From positions 1 to 40,407 of the forward strand of contig JACQEX010000021.1 in the NCBI GenBank assembly GCA_016200345.1: a stretch of DNA of 40,407 bases, given 5' to 3'. Position 1 is the first letter of the stretch. Every line of letters begins with the position of its first letter. A program made the translations under genes and the position numbers. The DNA comes from Nitrospinota bacterium (GTDB taxonomy: Bacteria; Nitrospinota_A; UBA7883; JACRGQ01). Of the stretch, positions 2,605-35,293 are shown piece after piece. Below the pieces are notes generated by a model, which did not search any database, was not told the DNA's origin, and saw only the letters and a program-made list of their open reading frames with translations.

Positions 2605-3339
2605 ATGGTTAAAAAAATCGGGCGGGAAGAGAAGCTCTCATTCCTTCAACATCTGGAGGAATTAAGGAAGCGAATAATCCGCATCGTCCTTTTTCTCATC
2701 GTTGCCTTTACCGTCACCTGGAACTTTTCGGAAAAGTTGATTCTCCCCTTTTCAAAACTGCTCGGCGCCAAATTGGTTTTCCTCACCCCCATGGAGGCGT
2801 TGATGGCCTACATGACCATCGCCTTCTATGCGGCGCTGTTTTTAACCGTGCCGTACCTTGCCTACCACGTCTGGGCGTTCGTCTCGCCCGGCCTGCGCGA
2901 AAAGGAGAAAAAATACGCGGTTGTCGTTGTGTCGTCAGCCAGCGGCCTTTTTTTCGCCGGGCTTGTTTTCTGCTGGTACCTCGTCCTGCCGTTCATGATT
3001 GGCTTCCTTATGAGCTACGGCGGCGACGTAATGACGCCGATGATATCCGTAAAGGCCTACATGAGCTTCTGCCTTTCGATACTCCTAATCTTCGGCGCGA
3101 TATTCGAGCTTCCGCTCGTGGTGGTGATTATTCATTCCATCGGCCTCGTCTCGCTGGCGGCGCTCAAGGATTTTCGCAGGTATTGGATAGTGGCCGCATT
3201 CGTCATCGCCGCAATCATAACCCCCACGCCGGACGTGTTTAACCAGACCATAACCGCGATACCGATGATTGTACTTTACGAGCTGAGCCTCGTGTGGATT
3301 TACCTGTTTGGAAGGAAGAAGCCGGTTGAAAACAATTAA
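2605..3339 (+). CDS. tatC: Sec-independent protein translocase subunit TatC
   Basis: A 244-residue, six-helix membrane protein and core receptor of the twin-arginine pathway, which exports folded proteins. Family hallmarks are the N-terminal LQHLEELRKRI with its conserved Glu, FLTPMEALMAYM after the first helix, FVSPGLREKEKKY in the first cytoplasmic loop and PTPDVFNQ in the last periplasmic loop. Length is normal. No tatA or tatB is in the window. The -10-like TAGAAT (2590-2595) ends 9 nt before the ATG and there is no Shine-Dalgarno, so the mRNA is probably nearly leaderless. The gene overlaps pyrF by 14 bp at its 3' end and starts a tatC-pyrF-acyP operon. Confidence 0.95.
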   Translation: MVKKIGREEKLSFLQHLEELRKRIIRIVLFLIVAFTVTWNFSEKLILPFSKLLGAKLVFLTPMEALMAYMTIAFYAALFLTVPYLAYHVWAFVSPGLREKEKKYAVVVVSSASGLFFAGLVFCWYLVLPFMIGFLMSYGGDVMTPMISVKAYMSFCLSILLIFGAIFELPLVVVIIHSIGLVSLAALKDFRRYWIVAAFVIAAIITPTPDVFNQTITAIPMIVLYELSLVWIYLFGRKKPVENN

Positions 3340-4030
3340 GCCCAAAGACCGACTGATTGTCGCGCTCGACGTCCCCTCCCCCGCCGAGGCCAAGAAATGG
3401 GCGAAAAAGCTTTCGCCGACCGTCGGCTTTTTTAAGGTGGGGCTGGAGCTTTTTACCGCCGGCGGCCCGGAGACGGTGGCGGGAATACGCGCGCTGGGGG
3501 CGGACGTTTTTCTTGACCTGAAGTTTTTCGACATCCCCAACACCATGGCCGGGGCGTTGAAATCCGCCGCCAAGCTAAAACCCTCGCTGGTGAACGTTCA
3601 CGCGCTGGCGGGGCCGGAGGCGCTTGCCAAATGCGCCGAGACGCTAAAGCAGTTGAAAAATCCGCCAAAACTTCTGGCCGTCACAATCCTCACCTCGTTC
3701 TCGAACGAGGAGCTGAAAAAAACGGGCGTTAAACACGGCTCCGCGAAAATGGTCTCGCACCTATGCCGAATGGCGTTGGACGCCGGGGCGGACGGCGTTG
3801 TGGCCTCGCCGCTGGAGACAAAAAAATTACGCGACGAGTTTGGGGAAAAATTTTTAATCGTCACCCCCGGCGTGCGCCCGGAATGGTCGGCAAAGAACGA
3901 CCAAAAACGCGTAGCCACCCCACGCGAGGCGATTGACGACGGCGCGGACTACATCGTCGTCGGAAGACCGATACTATCCTCGCCGAATCCGCTGGAGGCG
4001 GCAAAGAAGGTCGTAGAGGAGATTTCTTGA
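3326..4030 (+). CDS. pyrF: orotidine 5'-phosphate decarboxylase
   Basis: Decarboxylates OMP to UMP in the last step of pyrimidine synthesis. The 234-residue sequence has RLIVALDVPS on the first beta strand, the catalytic DLKFFDIPNT (Asp-x-Lys-x-x-Asp), GADGVVASP and the phosphate-binding VTPGVRP and YIVVGRPI. A TTG at 3326 is chosen as start because GGAAGGAAG lies just upstream and the protein then begins MKTIKPKDRLIVALD, as in homologues; another TTG lies at 3308. The start overlaps the tatC 3' end. acyP begins directly after the stop. Confidence 0.93.
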   Translation: MKTIKPKDRLIVALDVPSPAEAKKWAKKLSPTVGFFKVGLELFTAGGPETVAGIRALGADVFLDLKFFDIPNTMAGALKSAAKLKPSLVNVHALAGPEALAKCAETLKQLKNPPKLLAVTILTSFSNEELKKTGVKHGSAKMVSHLCRMALDAGADGVVASPLETKKLRDEFGEKFLIVTPGVRPEWSAKNDQKRVATPREAIDDGADYIVVGRPILSSPNPLEAAKKVVEEIS

Positions 4031-5189: not shown

Positions 5190-6950
5190 CTACTTCGTCT
5201 CGCTGTGGGAAAGCGCGTCCGCCGGTCGTTTGTGCTCCCTGTGCCGCACCCACCTGTTGTGCTCGGACGATTTTTGAACCGTCCCTTTTCTGTCGGGATA
5301 TGTCTGGCGAATCGTGAACGGCTGTCGCATGACGACGCCGTATTTCTTCAACTTTCTGTTTTCATTCCAGGCCAATATCCGAACGAACGGGGCCAGCAAT
5401 TTTTCAGACAACGGCACGGGGCCGAACGTCTCCAAGAATTTTTCCCTTATCATGCGGGCCTTCTGCGCGGACTCCCAGTTGGGCGCGTAAATCTCCGCCG
5501 GCTTCAATATCGGCCTAAACTCCAGGGCGCTTGTCTTCATCGCCTCGAGCCTCAGCCGCATGTACTCGTCCCTGACCGGCTTGTCGGACTTCACGTAGCC
5601 GAGTTCCTTGGAGTCCCAAACCATCCCGGCCTTTTCGCGCTCCTCGATTTCGCGCTTCACCGTCAGGTAGCCCTTCAAATAGGTGTGGGCCATGTTCAAA
5701 ACCCCCGGCCCGTGGGTGTGGTATTTCTTGATGAACGCCTGCCTCGTAATCTCGCGCGTCTCGTCCAGCGTGAAGTGGGGATGGTTGAACCAAATCTCGC
5801 TCTGCCCGTGCTGTTCCGGCCACGGCTTCCCTTTTATCAGTTTTCCCTCGGCGAGGTACTCCTTGAAAAGCCTCGTGCCGGGAATCGGCCCGAACTGCAT
5901 GAACTGCAGGAGGTCGGACTCCACCCCGATGGCCCAGTCAATGTCCTCGTTTATCGTCTCTTTGTCGTGGTGCTCCATGAAAAGGATTGCGGAGGCCAAA
6001 ACTGTGACGCCGTGGTTTTGCAGGTCGGCGATGAGCGCGTTCAAATCCACGCCGACAGTCTTTTCAAAAACGTTCGCCTTGGACTCTATTCCTATCCAGA
6101 GGAACTTCACGCCCATCCTGACGAAGAAGTCCACCCCGAGTTTGCCGATTGTCTCCGCCGACGAGAAGGTGGAGAATGTGTAGGCCTTTCCGGCCTTTTC
6201 CATCTCCGCCAAAAGCTCGCGCGCCCTTTTCGGGCTTTTGCCGAAGTTTTCGTCCATTATAGCGAAATCGGTGACCTTCAGCGCCTTTCCGGTTTTTTCG
6301 CACGCGTCGAAGACGTCTTTCCCGCTTGAAAGAAACGCGGTGTACTGCTTTTCAAATTTGTGCGTCGTGGCGCAAAAGCGGCAGGTGTTCTGGCATCCCA
6401 CGCCGGAGACGAGTATCCCGGCCTCGCTTATTATGGGCGCGCCGTAGACGTATTTCCTGATGCCTGAAGCCACGACGGGATGAATGATGGGCTTGTCCAC
6501 GTCCTCGCCGAAATATTTTCTAAGCCAAGTGACGCCCTCGCCCCTGCAAAGCTCGTCGTAATCCACTATTTCGTCCAGTTCCGGAATCGCCGCGCCGTGG
6601 CCGCCGAGCATGATGACCGTCTCGGAGTTGTTTTTTCGCACGTACTCGGCCATTCTTTTTGCCTTCAGCACGTTCGGGGCAATGAACGATATACCGACGT
6701 GGGTGTAGCCTCCCTTGTCAACTTCCTTTGCGAACTCCTCCCAACTCGGGAAATCCAGCACCGTGGCCGGAACCTCCACGTTTTCGGCCATAAGGTATAG
6801 TCCGAAGCTGGGATTGTTGGATCTTGGTGAATGAACGCCCTGTTCGCGCGTAACCTGGTTGTTCAGCAATTCCATGGTGCACAGGGCCTCGCCATACTCG
6901 TCGTCCACGCCGAACGGCTTAAAAACCCCGGCCAATAATAATTTACTCAT
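5190..6950 (-). CDS. B12-binding-domain radical SAM protein
   Basis: A 586-residue enzyme of the cobalamin-binding radical SAM class. Residues about 1-160 form a B12-binding Rossmann-like domain without the canonical DxHxxG (VGISFIAPNVLKAKRMAEYV, MLGGHGA). The [4Fe-4S] cluster motif GCQNTCRFC gives Cys186, Cys190 and Cys193 (Cx3Cx2C). The GIESKANVFEKT region follows, with a Lys/Arg-rich C-terminal extension. ATG at 6950 with GGAAGGAAG upstream. The substrate cannot be inferred; relatives include methyltransferases and ring-forming enzymes. The only neighbour on the same strand downstream is the SUMF1-domain gene, across a palindromic repeat. Confidence 0.85.
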   Translation of the reverse strand: MSKLLLAGVFKPFGVDDEYGEALCTMELLNNQVTREQGVHSPRSNNPSFGLYLMAENVEVPATVLDFPSWEEFAKEVDKGGYTHVGISFIAPNVLKAKRMAEYVRKNNSETVIMLGGHGAAIPELDEIVDYDELCRGEGVTWLRKYFGEDVDKPIIHPVVASGIRKYVYGAPIISEAGILVSGVGCQNTCRFCATTHKFEKQYTAFLSSGKDVFDACEKTGKALKVTDFAIMDENFGKSPKRARELLAEMEKAGKAYTFSTFSSAETIGKLGVDFFVRMGVKFLWIGIESKANVFEKTVGVDLNALIADLQNHGVTVLASAILFMEHHDKETINEDIDWAIGVESDLLQFMQFGPIPGTRLFKEYLAEGKLIKGKPWPEQHGQSEIWFNHPHFTLDETREITRQAFIKKYHTHGPGVLNMAHTYLKGYLTVKREIEEREKAGMVWDSKELGYVKSDKPVRDEYMRLRLEAMKTSALEFRPILKPAEIYAPNWESAQKARMIREKFLETFGPVPLSEKLLAPFVRILAWNENRKLKKYGVVMRQPFTIRQTYPDRKGTVQKSSEHNRWVRHREHKRPADALSHSETK

Positions 6951-7130
6951 TGTGTTTTACTTCCTTCCGGGGCCAACGCCCCAACTAATTTCAAACCCCC
7001 TTGACTGTCCTCCCCGCGTAGTTATCCACAAGGATGACCGCCTGAATTCTAACACGTTTTAACGGTTAGTCTATTACTTTTGTCATACTTCCAATCTCCT
7101 GATGAGAAGTCTGAAAGGCGTTTTTGCTCG

Positions 7131-31078: not shown

Positions 31079-31998
31079 TTTTTTCCGCCTCCCATGCACA
31101 TTTTCAAAATTGCCTTCTGCGCGTGCAATTTGTATTCCGCCTGGTCGAAAACTATCGACGCCGGGCAGTCCATCACCTCGGAGCTAATCTCCTCGCCCCT
31201 GTGGGCTGGGAGACAATGCATAACGCTACATCCCGGCTTTGCCTTTCTTAAAAGCTTTGCGTCCACCATGAACCCCGCAAAATCCTTTTTCCTTTTTTTA
31301 ATCTGCGACTCGTGCCCCATGCTGGCCCACACGTCGGTGTAAAGCGCGTCGGCGCCTTTAGCCGCATCCTCCGGGCTGTGTGTGAGGGTTATCTTTACGC
31401 CGGATTTTTTCGCCAGCCTTCGCGCCGTCTCCACCACGTCCTCCGGGGGCGCATAGCCCTTCGGCGTGGCGACCGCCACGTTCACGCCCAGCATCGCGCC
31501 GCCGAGCATGAGCGAGTTAGCCACGTTGTTGCCGTCCCCCACGTAGGCAAGGCGCAGTCCCTTAAGCCCCTTTTTCTTGTCCAGCAACACCGCGTAGTCG
31601 GCGACGGCCTGGCACGGATGATATTTGTCCGTCAGCGCGTTTATGACAGGGATGGAGGAAAACCCCGCAAATTCCTCAAGCTCCTCGTGCCCGTATGTCC
31701 TTACGATTAGCGCGTCCACGTAGCGGGAAAGAACCTTCGCCGTGTCGTGGTGCGACTCCCCCCTGCCGAGCTGTAGCTCGTCCTTGCGGAGCAACATGGA
31801 AAACCCGCCCATCTGGAAAATGCCGGCTTGAAACGCCACCCGCGTCCTCGTGGAGCTTTTCGCAAAATAGAGGGCCACGGTTTTCCCGGCGAGGGGTTTT
31901 GACTTGTCCCCCTTTTTCTTCAGCCGCACCGCCTCTTGCACGAGTTTTAAGAGAGCCTCCGGCGAGTGGTCGGATATTTTTAGGAAATGTTCTGGCAC
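31069..31998 (-). CDS. argF: ornithine carbamoyltransferase
   Basis: A 309-residue enzyme that makes citrulline from ornithine and carbamoyl phosphate. Carbamoyl-phosphate motif SSTRTRVAF, the second HPCQAVADY and the ornithine motif [10 protein letters not shown] rule out aspartate carbamoyltransferase. GTG start at 31998 with GGAGG 4 nt upstream. Overlaps argD by 19 bp upstream and argG by 10 bp downstream, so the three are translationally coupled. Confidence 0.95.
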
Positions 31999-33170
31999 AG
32001 AGCCTCCCGCAGAATCGAGACGCCTTTTTCAATCTCGCGCTTCGTCACGTTAAGGGCCGGAACCATCCGCAGAACCGTGTCGTGGGTGCAGTTGATGATA
32101 AGGCCCCGCTCCCGGCAGGCTGACACGTATCCGGCGCCCGGCCTGTCGAGCTGGATTCCAATCATCAGCCCGGTCTGCCGCACCTCGGTGATGAACGGAA
32201 ATTCCTTCCGAAGTTTTTCCACCAGTTTTTTCGCGTGCGCGCCTACGGTCTGCGCGTTTTTCAAAAGCTTTTTCTCCTTGATTGACTTAATCACCGCAAG
32301 CGCCGCCGAACAGGCGAGCGGGTTGCCGCCGAATGTGGATGCGTGCGTCCCCGGACCGAAGGAGTCCATCACCTCCGGCTTGGCTAGCATCGCGCCGATG
32401 GGGAATCCGCCGCCAAGCCCCTTGGCGAGCGTCATAATGTCCGGCACCACGCCGGAGTTTTGAAAGCCGAACCATTTGCCGATCCGCCCCATGCCGCACT
32501 GGACCTCGTCGAATATCAGCAAAATTCCGTTTTGGTCGCAAAGCTCGCGCACTTTTTTAAGGTAGTCGGCGGGGGCGATGTGCACGCCGCTCTCCCCTTG
32601 CACCGGCTCGATTAAAATTGCGCCGGTTTTGTCGGTGACGGCGTTTTTTAGGGCGTCGAAATCGGCGAAGGGAACGTGGCTCACGCCGGGCAAAAGCGGC
32701 TCGAACCCCTTGTGGTATTTTTTTTGCCCGGTGCAGGATAAGGCGCCGTACGTCCTTCCGTGGAAGGAGTCCTCCATGGCAATTATCTCGAACCTGCCGG
32801 TCTGTTTGTCGTGCTGGTATTTGCGAGCCAGCTTGATGGCCGACTCGATCGCCTCCGCGCCCGAATTGACGAAAAGCGCCTTGGATGGGAACGATATTTT
32901 TACGAGTTCCCGCGCCAACAGCCCCTGCGGTATGGTGTAAAAAATGTTGGAGGTGTGCATAAGGAGTGCCGCCTGTTTCAATGCGTTTACCACCGCCTTT
33001 GGCGAGTGTCCGATTGCGTTGACCGCTATCCCCTGCACCAAGTCGAGGTATTTTTTGCCGTCCGAGTCAACCGCTATGGAGCCGCTCCCTTTGACGAGCG
33101 CGAGCGGTTGCCGCCCATAGTTTTTGGCCACAAATTTTTCGTAAACGACCAGTATCTCTTTTGTTTTCAT
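31980..33170 (-). CDS. argD: acetylornithine aminotransferase
   Basis: A 396-residue class III PLP aminotransferase that converts N-acetylglutamate semialdehyde to N-acetylornithine. Motifs: FVNSGAEAIESAIKLAR, EDSFHGRTYGALS, LIFDEVQCGMGRIGKWF, and the PLP Lys in TLAKGLGGGFPIGAML. The ATG lies 9 nt past TAGGAT (33184-33179), without a ribosome site, so it should be leaderless. Perfect inverted repeat in the promoter (33185-33213). First gene of the arginine operon; argB, argC, argJ and argH are elsewhere. Confidence 0.93.
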   Translation of the reverse strand: MKTKEILVVYEKFVAKNYGRQPLALVKGSGSIAVDSDGKKYLDLVQGIAVNAIGHSPKAVVNALKQAALLMHTSNIFYTIPQGLLARELVKISFPSKALFVNSGAEAIESAIKLARKYQHDKQTGRFEIIAMEDSFHGRTYGALSCTGQKKYHKGFEPLLPGVSHVPFADFDALKNAVTDKTGAILIEPVQGESGVHIAPADYLKKVRELCDQNGILLIFDEVQCGMGRIGKWFGFQNSGVVPDIMTLAKGLGGGFPIGAMLAKPEVMDSFGPGTHASTFGGNPLACSAALAVIKSIKEKKLLKNAQTVGAHAKKLVEKLRKEFPFITEVRQTGLMIGIQLDRPGAGYVSACRERGLIINCTHDTVLRMVPALNVTKREIEKGVSILREALCQNIS

Positions 33171-33346: not shown

Positions 33347-33748
33347 TTGAACGTCTATATTATCCAAGGCCACGCAAATTCTGGGAAATCAAGCGCCGTC
33401 AGGGCATTGACCGGCCTCTACAGAGGTGACACAATTAGTTTCAAATTAGTTAACATCGATCAGCCTATGAGGCTTTATGTGTCTATCGGGTCTTTGCAAG
33501 AGAAAAAGATACAACCACTCGAATTTATAAACACCGTTAATGGTGCGGGAGTGAACAATGTATTGTTAACCCTCCGAATCGCCCCTGCCCGAGAATGTCC
33601 GAATGTCTTGGCCTACATAACGGCTTTTCAACAATCAGGATGGACAGTTATTCAACCCGTAATAGACTTGCCAATCCCAAATCCTTTACATAATGGCCCC
33701 AATTTACTTGTTAACGAGGTAGGGGCCCAAACTTATGGCCGAAAATAA
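33347..33748 (+). CDS. small P-loop protein
   Basis: A 133-residue protein of no family I recognise. TTG at 33347 is taken as start because GGAGG (33332-33336) precedes it by 10 nt, and the product then begins with a beta strand and Walker A, MNVYIIQGHANSGKSS (Gly8 to Ser15). A longer frame from 33245 lacks a ribosome site. A strand NVLLTLRI (about residue 75-82) is where Walker B would be, but it has no acidic residue, so hydrolysis is uncertain. The 3' end overlaps the next gene by 14 bp. The pair is much poorer in GC than its neighbours, suggesting transfer as a unit. It is divergent from argD. Confidence 0.7.
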   Translation: MNVYIIQGHANSGKSSAVRALTGLYRGDTISFKLVNIDQPMRLYVSIGSLQEKKIQPLEFINTVNGAGVNNVLLTLRIAPARECPNVLAYITAFQQSGWTVIQPVIDLPIPNPLHNGPNLLVNEVGAQTYGRK

Positions 33749-34508
33749 AACTAGGTATATCTGTTTTTTAGACGTTCTGGGCTTTTCTGAAATTATAAAC
33801 TCTGGTGGTTTTGAAAAGTTTAATAAATACATAAAAATTATTAATCGCACTATTGAATCCATAGACATAAACCAACAGTACATTGTCTTTTCCGACTCTA
33901 TTATCATTTTCTCTGAGGATGACAATGAGCAATCTTTCATTAACCTCGCCAGCATCGTGTCAGTAATATCTTATGAATTCCTCGTTAATGAAAATTTAGC
34001 TTTAAGGGGAAGCATTGCCCATGGGCTGGTGGAATTATTACAAGAGAAAACCAAAACTACCCTTGCCGGCAAACCGATAATAGAAGCCTATAAATTAGAA
34101 CAGTCCCAAAATTGGATTGGGGTAATCCTGGCCCGCAGTGTAATCGCAAGAGATCCATCGCTTGCCCTTAAGATTTTCGCAATTAACCCGGCTAATTTTA
34201 GTAATACGGAGTGTGTTTTAGATAATCTTCAATTATTTATCTCACTTTATCGTTACCCCAGAATACCATTCAAGAACGATGATGTTTATGAAGGCCTAGC
34301 AATTATCCCGCATAAATTATCTTCAACCCACCCAGAACATTTGGTCGAGGATTTAGCGGAATATTCAACTAAACTCTCAAATTTAGTCCTTTTAGGCCGA
34401 GAGCCTTCCGTTCAAAAAAAATACCAAAACACTTTGGATTATATTCGGTTAGTTAAGGGGGTCATGCCTGAAATATCCCGGAGCCCCTATTGGAGAAATA
34501 GGGTTTAG
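33735..34508 (+). CDS. class III nucleotidyl cyclase-like protein
   Basis: A 257-residue soluble protein. CFLDVLGFSEII (Asp13) and FSDSIIIFS (Asp54) match the two metal-binding aspartates of class III cyclases, with a 41-residue spacing close to the usual 40-44. ALRGSIAHG (Arg91) and AGKPIIEAYKLEQSQNWIG follow, a block seen in cyclase-homology proteins of defence loci such as the Pycsar cyclases. Whether it makes a cyclic nucleotide, and from which base, is not visible. No TIR, transmembrane or other Pycsar effector is adjacent; its only partner is the overlapping P-loop gene. Hand counts of three lines give 22-43% GC, against 60-77% in neighbours. Confidence 0.7.
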   Translation: MAENKTRYICFLDVLGFSEIINSGGFEKFNKYIKIINRTIESIDINQQYIVFSDSIIIFSEDDNEQSFINLASIVSVISYEFLVNENLALRGSIAHGLVELLQEKTKTTLAGKPIIEAYKLEQSQNWIGVILARSVIARDPSLALKIFAINPANFSNTECVLDNLQLFISLYRYPRIPFKNDDVYEGLAIIPHKLSSTHPEHLVEDLAEYSTKLSNLVLLGREPSVQKKYQNTLDYIRLVKGVMPEISRSPYWRNRV

Positions 34509-34616: not shown

Positions 34617-34904
34617 TTAGGCGGCTTTTTTCTTTGAGAGCACAATGCCGACGTTGACGCCGGCGTGCGCGAGCATCGAAATAAGAGTGTCAACGGTGAA
34701 CATCTGGATTTTGCCCCTCATCAAATCGCTGATGCGCGGCTGTGCGACCCCAAAAAACCTTGCGGCTTTGGCCTGCGTCATTTTTTTGCCCTCGATGAAT
34801 TTGGTAATTTCCATCATTAGGTTCGAGCGTATCAAAAGGTTCGCCGACTCCTGTCCGTCAAATCCCAAATCTTGAAACAGGTTTTTAGCCCCGGCTTTTT
34901 TCAT
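34617..34904 (-). CDS. HTH protein without visible toxin partner
   Basis: A 95-residue XRE-like protein: an N-terminal segment MKKAGAKNLFQDLGFDGQE, then a helix-turn-helix about 45-80 (MTQAKAARFFGVAQPRISDLMRGK), like the antitoxins of HigBA/RelBE-type pairs (HTH_37 type). ATG at 34904 is chosen because a consensus promoter starts 10 nt upstream; the longer open frame to 35177 translates a dispersed repeat. No toxin gene adjoins upstream (repeats) or downstream (cyclase-like gene, convergent). It may be a remnant, or regulate the neighbouring pair. Confidence 0.8.
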   Translation of the reverse strand: MKKAGAKNLFQDLGFDGQESANLLIRSNLMMEITKFIEGKKMTQAKAARFFGVAQPRISDLMRGKIQMFTVDTLISMLAHAGVNVGIVLSKKKAA

Positions 34905-34914
34905 AGATGGAACT

Positions 34915-34943
34915 ATTACATACAAGTACTTGTATAATGTCAA
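34915..34943 (-). promoter_or_regulatory. promoter with 16-bp perfect palindrome for the HTH gene
   Basis: TTGACA (34943-34938), 17 bp, TGTAAT (34920-34915), then 10 nt to the ATG. The palindrome ATACAAGTACTTGTAT (34920-34935) lies in the spacer and touches the -10. This is an ideal site for autorepression by the dimeric HTH product. Confidence 0.8.
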
Positions 34944-34984: not shown

Positions 34985-35150
34985 CCTTATTGTCATACCC
35001 GCGAAGCCAGTCCCCGGCACCGAACGGGGAGCGGGCATCCAGACTCAATATAACGCTGGATTCCCCGACCCCGCCAAGGCTTGTCCCCGCGAAGGCGGGG
35101 ATGGGGCCGGGACGACGCCCGTTTTCACGGGAATGACAAATAGGGGGGGG
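34985..35150. repeat. dispersed CCCGCGAAGGCGGGG-type repeat
   Basis: Palindromic blocks CCCCGCGAAGGCGGGG and CCCGTTTTCACGGG with CATACCCGCGAAG. Their minus-strand translation (RPGPIPAFAGTS) is the spurious peptide typical of this widespread intergenic repeat class. A run of ten G lies at 35143-35152 and a perfect GGGCGAAT-AA-ATTCGCCC at 35190-35207. No gene lies between 34905 and 35293. Confidence 0.7.
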
Positions 35151-35293
35151 GGTGAAAGTGTGGCTCTGATGGCCCAAAACTTTGGGAATGGGCGAATAAA
35201 TTCGCCCCTACCATTCGGATAAACATTTCCCTTTTGGGGTTCCCCGTTCGGTGCCGGGGACAAGCCTTGGCGGCTAGGCGGTGGATGTTGTTT

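Follow-up and report, generated by a model that had tools for sequence, protein, structure and literature searches.

Does the AT-rich gene pair between argDFG and an HTH gene in the window (the whole 40,407-nucleotide stretch of DNA analysed here) form a two-gene nucleotide-signalling module, as a preliminary description proposed, and what kind of protein is its second product? The first gene (ORF 1; 33347-33748, forward strand) encodes the 133 aa protein P0001 from a TTG start preceded by a good Shine-Dalgarno sequence (CGAGGAGG). The second (ORF 2; 33735-34508, forward strand) encodes the 257 aa protein P0002 from an ATG start with a plausible ribosome-binding site (GAGGTAGGGG) upstream, and the two genes overlap by 14 bp (33735-33748), as had been reported. 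We regard both ORFs as real genes because homologues cover most of the length of each, and P0002 additionally because a pair of aspartates is invariant throughout its family. To the left of the pair lies argDFG on the reverse strand (argD at 31980-33170), and to the right an HTH_37 regulator gene, also on the reverse strand (34617-34904), which leaves P0001, argD and the HTH gene as the neighbours of P0002.

The low GC content noted in the preliminary description was borne out: the P0001 and P0002 genes have 43.8% and 37.5% GC, against 56-60% in argD, argF, argG, rfbD and their neighbours, and their GC3 values are 0.44 and 0.38, against 0.68-0.74 in the flanking genes. Neither gene of the pair was found upstream of argD in relatives that keep argD, most of which also keep argF. 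The DNA upstream of argD differs among these relatives, and therefore no clean empty site can be defined. On the strength of the low GC and GC3 and of the absence from this position in the relatives, horizontal transfer is the probable origin of the pair, which would have been inserted upstream of argD as a piece of AT-rich DNA.

Two further features lie to the right of the pair. The promoter region of the HTH_37 gene carries the palindrome already recorded there, a perfect 16-bp one (ATACAAGTACTTGTAT, 34920-34935) which is probably autoregulatory; no toxin gene neighbours this regulator. A non-coding stretch at 35010-35261 holds a pair of perfect 21-bp inverted repeats separated by 210 bp and a second pair of 19 bp, and short partial copies of it occur at other places in the genome. 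This stretch is perhaps a MITE-like or REP-type element.

On its own, P0002 retrieved no match in Pfam, NCBIfam or PADLOC, and the only catalogued family covering it is phrog_23933, which matches residues 3-126 (E 7.6e-12). An AlphaFold (AF2) model was generated from an alignment of 35 natural homologues, with the plasmid and phage-record rows left out, and reached a mean pLDDT of 85.7 and a pTM of 0.85. When this model was searched against the PDB with Foldseek, the top 50 matches were class III cyclases only, the best being 5o5l_A (E 1.8e-8, prob 1.00). The TM-scores to these cyclases are moderate, at about 0.5 by query length, in part because the C-terminal 100 residues of P0002 differ. Profile searches agreed with the model. 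The P0002 family profile, run against 177,635 PDB sequences, ranked adenylate and guanylate cyclases first (E 4e-4 to 1e-2), and hhalign against a set of 24 class III domains, drawn from related genomes, gave a collinear alignment over the domain at prob 89.6 (E 2.2e-7). PF00211 itself falls below detection across the 37 family members, with a best member E of 0.23. A GGDEF or diguanylate cyclase identity was ruled out (hhalign prob 0.03). Judged from the predicted structure and the profile alignments, P0002 is a true, stand-alone homologue of the class III cyclase fold, in agreement with the preliminary description, which had named both a missing cyclase fold and homologues lacking the metal aspartates as grounds for rejection; we encountered neither.

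The family to which P0002 belongs was recovered by iterating an alignment from the few detectable relatives, since single-protein scans returned one relative or none. Its profile matches in 27 of 385 genomes surveyed (about 6-7%), in a patchy distribution; two of the 27 (L033 and L034, among the weakest matches) are ordinary class III cyclases. Members are also present in 12 IMG/VR viral contigs, one phage record and one plasmid. No Pfam, NCBIfam or PADLOC model exists for the family, and literature searches returned no paper describing it. The P0002 proteins form an uncatalogued family with a class III cyclase fold, stand-alone and cytosolic, that circulates among phages and the accessory genomes of bacteria. 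One locus, L066 (G340:C443:7500-20000), encodes at 5891-6994 a 367 aa member with an N-terminal MNT-type nucleotidyltransferase motif, GSxxxGxxxxxSDxDLLV. A single member among the 37 matches NTP_transf_2 (E 2.1e-11); this is probably the L066 protein, which would then be a fusion of two nucleotidyl-transfer folds.

We counted active-site residues over 37 aligned members, which share 15-28% identity and whose register near residues 113-120 is somewhat uncertain. The two metal aspartates, which the preliminary description had placed 41 residues apart, are D13 at the end of beta-1 (codon 33771-33773, forward strand) and D54 in the beta-2/beta-3 turn (codon 33894-33896, forward strand), and both are invariant in 37/37 members. 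The transition-state Asn is found in none of the 37, with Ile or Val in its place in 30, and the transition-state Arg is kept in three; in the control columns from 24 class III domains, Asn and Arg are each present in 24/24. The base-specifying Lys/Asp (or Glu/Cys) pair is likewise not kept, being I50 and K113 in P0002 and variable in the family. Other residues are specific to the family, namely R91 (36/37), S53 (35/37), G112 (34/37) and K229 (34/37). Separately, the column of residue 129, which follows a conserved helix, holds Gly in 17 members (WIG) and Pro in 20 (YPR-type), a split which suggests two subfamilies.

The metal site thus looks functional while the remaining catalytic apparatus looks different. 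Because neither the Asn/Arg nor the Lys/Asp pair is kept, synthesis of a cyclic nucleotide by P0002 is hypothetical, and from these alignments ordinary cyclase activity of the family cannot be assumed. Class III-like proteins without the Asn have been published, with His in Rv1900c and with Ile in DUF2652 proteins, which keep the Arg (PMC4886424), so loss of the Asn alone does not exclude catalysis. Loss of both Asn and Arg, as in the P0002 family, is unusual.

The preliminary description had likened P0002 to cyclase-homology proteins of defence loci, and this likeness is upheld at other loci, where family genes lie beside anti-phage genes. In 5/25 genome loci the family gene has a recognised anti-phage gene as its immediate neighbour, in the same orientation. 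One of these is L061, where the member (G299:C6:137500-149500, 5234-6211) sits between BREX on one side and Gabija on the other in the order PglZ-BrxL-[family gene]-GajA-GajB. These genes share one strand, and the gaps measure 198 and 15 bp; the four flanking genes match their models at E 5.6e-280 (PglZ), 8.1e-294 (BrxL), 2.9e-187 (GajA) and 5.8e-144 (GajB). The other four adjoin a type III methyltransferase and restriction enzyme (REase_III; L072), a type I restriction enzyme (REase_I; L057), a type IV restriction-enzyme-like helicase (L053) and an AbiU/AIPR protein (L065). The remaining 20/25 genome loci have no recognised defence gene directly adjoining, and in several viral contigs the family gene stands amid phage-type genes with no recognised partner. 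The control set was small, consisting of 19 regions of the same genomes, picked arbitrarily, with 110 genes in all. Among the 25 of 49 PADLOC families listed for these controls there was no named defence system gene, only generic PDC, DinG and RtcR models; for the test loci the corresponding list comprised 25 of 124 families. A function of the P0002 family in defence or phage conflict is a reasonable inference from these neighbourhoods. The window itself adds nothing to it, as no recognised defence gene adjoins P0002 here.

We then considered P0001, which the preliminary description called a Walker A protein. The string GHANSGKSS is indeed present, and yet it is not conserved. P0001 retrieved no Pfam, NCBIfam, PADLOC or PHROG match above noise, and only two relatives were found, one on an Ideonella dechloratans plasmid and one in genome G191 (E 1.3e-27). 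The corresponding regions of these relatives read GNPNTRKST and GDRNTRKSA, so that instead of the Walker A pattern GxxxxGK[ST] both have GxxNTRKS and lack the second Walker glycine, and P-loop assignment of P0001 is therefore not secure. The motif shared by all three aligned proteins is GxxN(T/S)(R/G)KS plus LQE. A single-sequence structure model of P0001 was poor (pLDDT 57). The Ideonella relative is flanked by genes for an ABC transporter and an RNA methyltransferase. The G191 relative (L191, G191:C9:1-9500, 3002-3448) has IS21-like genes of the IstA/IstB type on one side and tyrosine recombinase fragments on the other, a mobile setting. A phage or viral context shared by the relatives was not supported.

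These comparisons bear directly on the proposal that the pair is a Pycsar-like module, in which P0002 would make a nucleotide signal and P0001 would be its cognate receptor, effector or regulator. The 14-bp overlap, the shared strand and the common low GC fit co-transcription and co-acquisition, and since family genes at L057 and L072 also overlap or abut varied partners, partner swapping is conceivable. Nevertheless, the P0001 profile found a P0001-like neighbour in 0/40 family loci besides the window itself, neither P0001 relative lies near a cyclase-like gene, and G191 contains no P0002 family member at all. The preliminary description had itself held that the pairing would fall if the two genes were not adjacent elsewhere, and adjacency proved not to be conserved. 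On this sequence comparison the two-gene module is largely refuted, and we consider it very unlikely. P0001 is, by the same comparison, a rare small P-loop-like protein that would be co-transcribed with P0002 here by chance and is not a conserved partner. It had also been suggested that a P-loop protein takes the place of the usual Pycsar effector; there is no CNBD effector beside P0002, but the replacement finds no comparative evidence. That P0002 is instead a divergent Pycsar cyclase (PycC) in its own right is more improbable still. The fold class is shared, the metal aspartates are 41 residues apart, near the 44 of EaPycC (D102/D146; PMC11224242), and relatives of P0002 occur in defence neighbourhoods. 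Against this, P0002 has no PADLOC match, no Pycsar model is among the PADLOC families listed for the 37 members, and neither beside P0002 nor, by inspection, among the neighbours of the family was a CNBD-TM or CNBD-TIR effector recognised.

The reading that we favour, with moderate confidence and from sequence and model, is that P0002 is an accessory metal-dependent cyclase-like enzyme, probably related to defence. D13 and D54 would hold two metal ions and thereby allow P0002 to bind an NTP, on which it may act by cyclisation or another nucleotidyl transfer. S53, R91, G112 and K229 may stand in for the missing Asn and Arg, and of these K229 and R91 are candidates for contacting a phosphate or the transition state. 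P0002 would most likely serve anti-phage defence, or phage competition, as an accessory enzyme. What speaks against an enzyme is the loss of Asn and Arg, as P0002 could be a pseudoenzyme. In that case it might serve as a non-cyclising nucleotide sensor whose aspartates bind NTP-Mg (or NDP) and which regulates a host or phage process through nucleotide-dependent binding. The absence of the Asn in 37/37 members and of the Arg in 34/37, the base-specifying Lys/Asp pair that is not kept, and the usual solitary position of the family gene, with neither receptor nor effector beside it, all agree with a sensor. However, both aspartates are strictly invariant at 15-28% identity, suggesting that metal chemistry is retained, and certain active class III enzymes do without the Asn, as the His of Rv1900c and the Ile of the DUF2652 proteins illustrate (PMC4886424). 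We therefore hold the sensor to be possible, and the less likely of the two.

A bolder form of the enzyme reading, which we put forward as speculative and rather unlikely, would make the family a new nucleotide-signalling enzyme of anti-phage defence or phage counter-defence. The two-Asp metal site and the R91/K229-type set would yield a non-canonical nucleotide product, and the gene would be a plug-in with interchangeable partners (BREX, Gabija, restriction, Abi and, here, the P-loop-like protein). The main outcome is a widespread class III-fold family, found in phages and in a BREX/Gabija island, whose metal site is intact and whose transition-state dyad is missing. If its members are active, anti-phage immunity would gain a further nucleotide-signalling enzyme; if they are not, the family would exemplify the reuse of a cyclase fold for sensing.

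Among known systems, the one catalogued family that covers P0002, phrog_23933 (PHROGs), comprises phage proteins only and has been assigned no function or fold. Pycsar PycC proteins resemble P0002 in their cyclase fold, their Asp pair and their occurrence beside defence genes; P0002, of 257 aa, shows none of the known features of PycC clades and has no CNBD effector gene nearby. DUF2652 proteins (PF10851; Ramakrishnan et al. 2016, PMC4886424) are similarly single-domain, cytosolic and about 250 aa long, with metal aspartates mostly kept and Asn replaced by Ile, but they keep the Arg. P0002 is not one of them, as none of the 37 members matches PF10851 and the hhalign probability is 8.9, versus 89.6 to class III. 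With the class III cyclases proper (PF00211), P0002 shares its fold, the order of strands and helices, a collinear profile alignment, and the placement of the two metal aspartates relative to beta-1 and the beta-2/beta-3 turn. In contrast to those enzymes, the P0002 family is without the Asn/Arg and Lys/Asp pairs and has S53, R91, K229 and a C-terminal part of about 100 residues, and P0002 itself stands alone, with no sensor domain.
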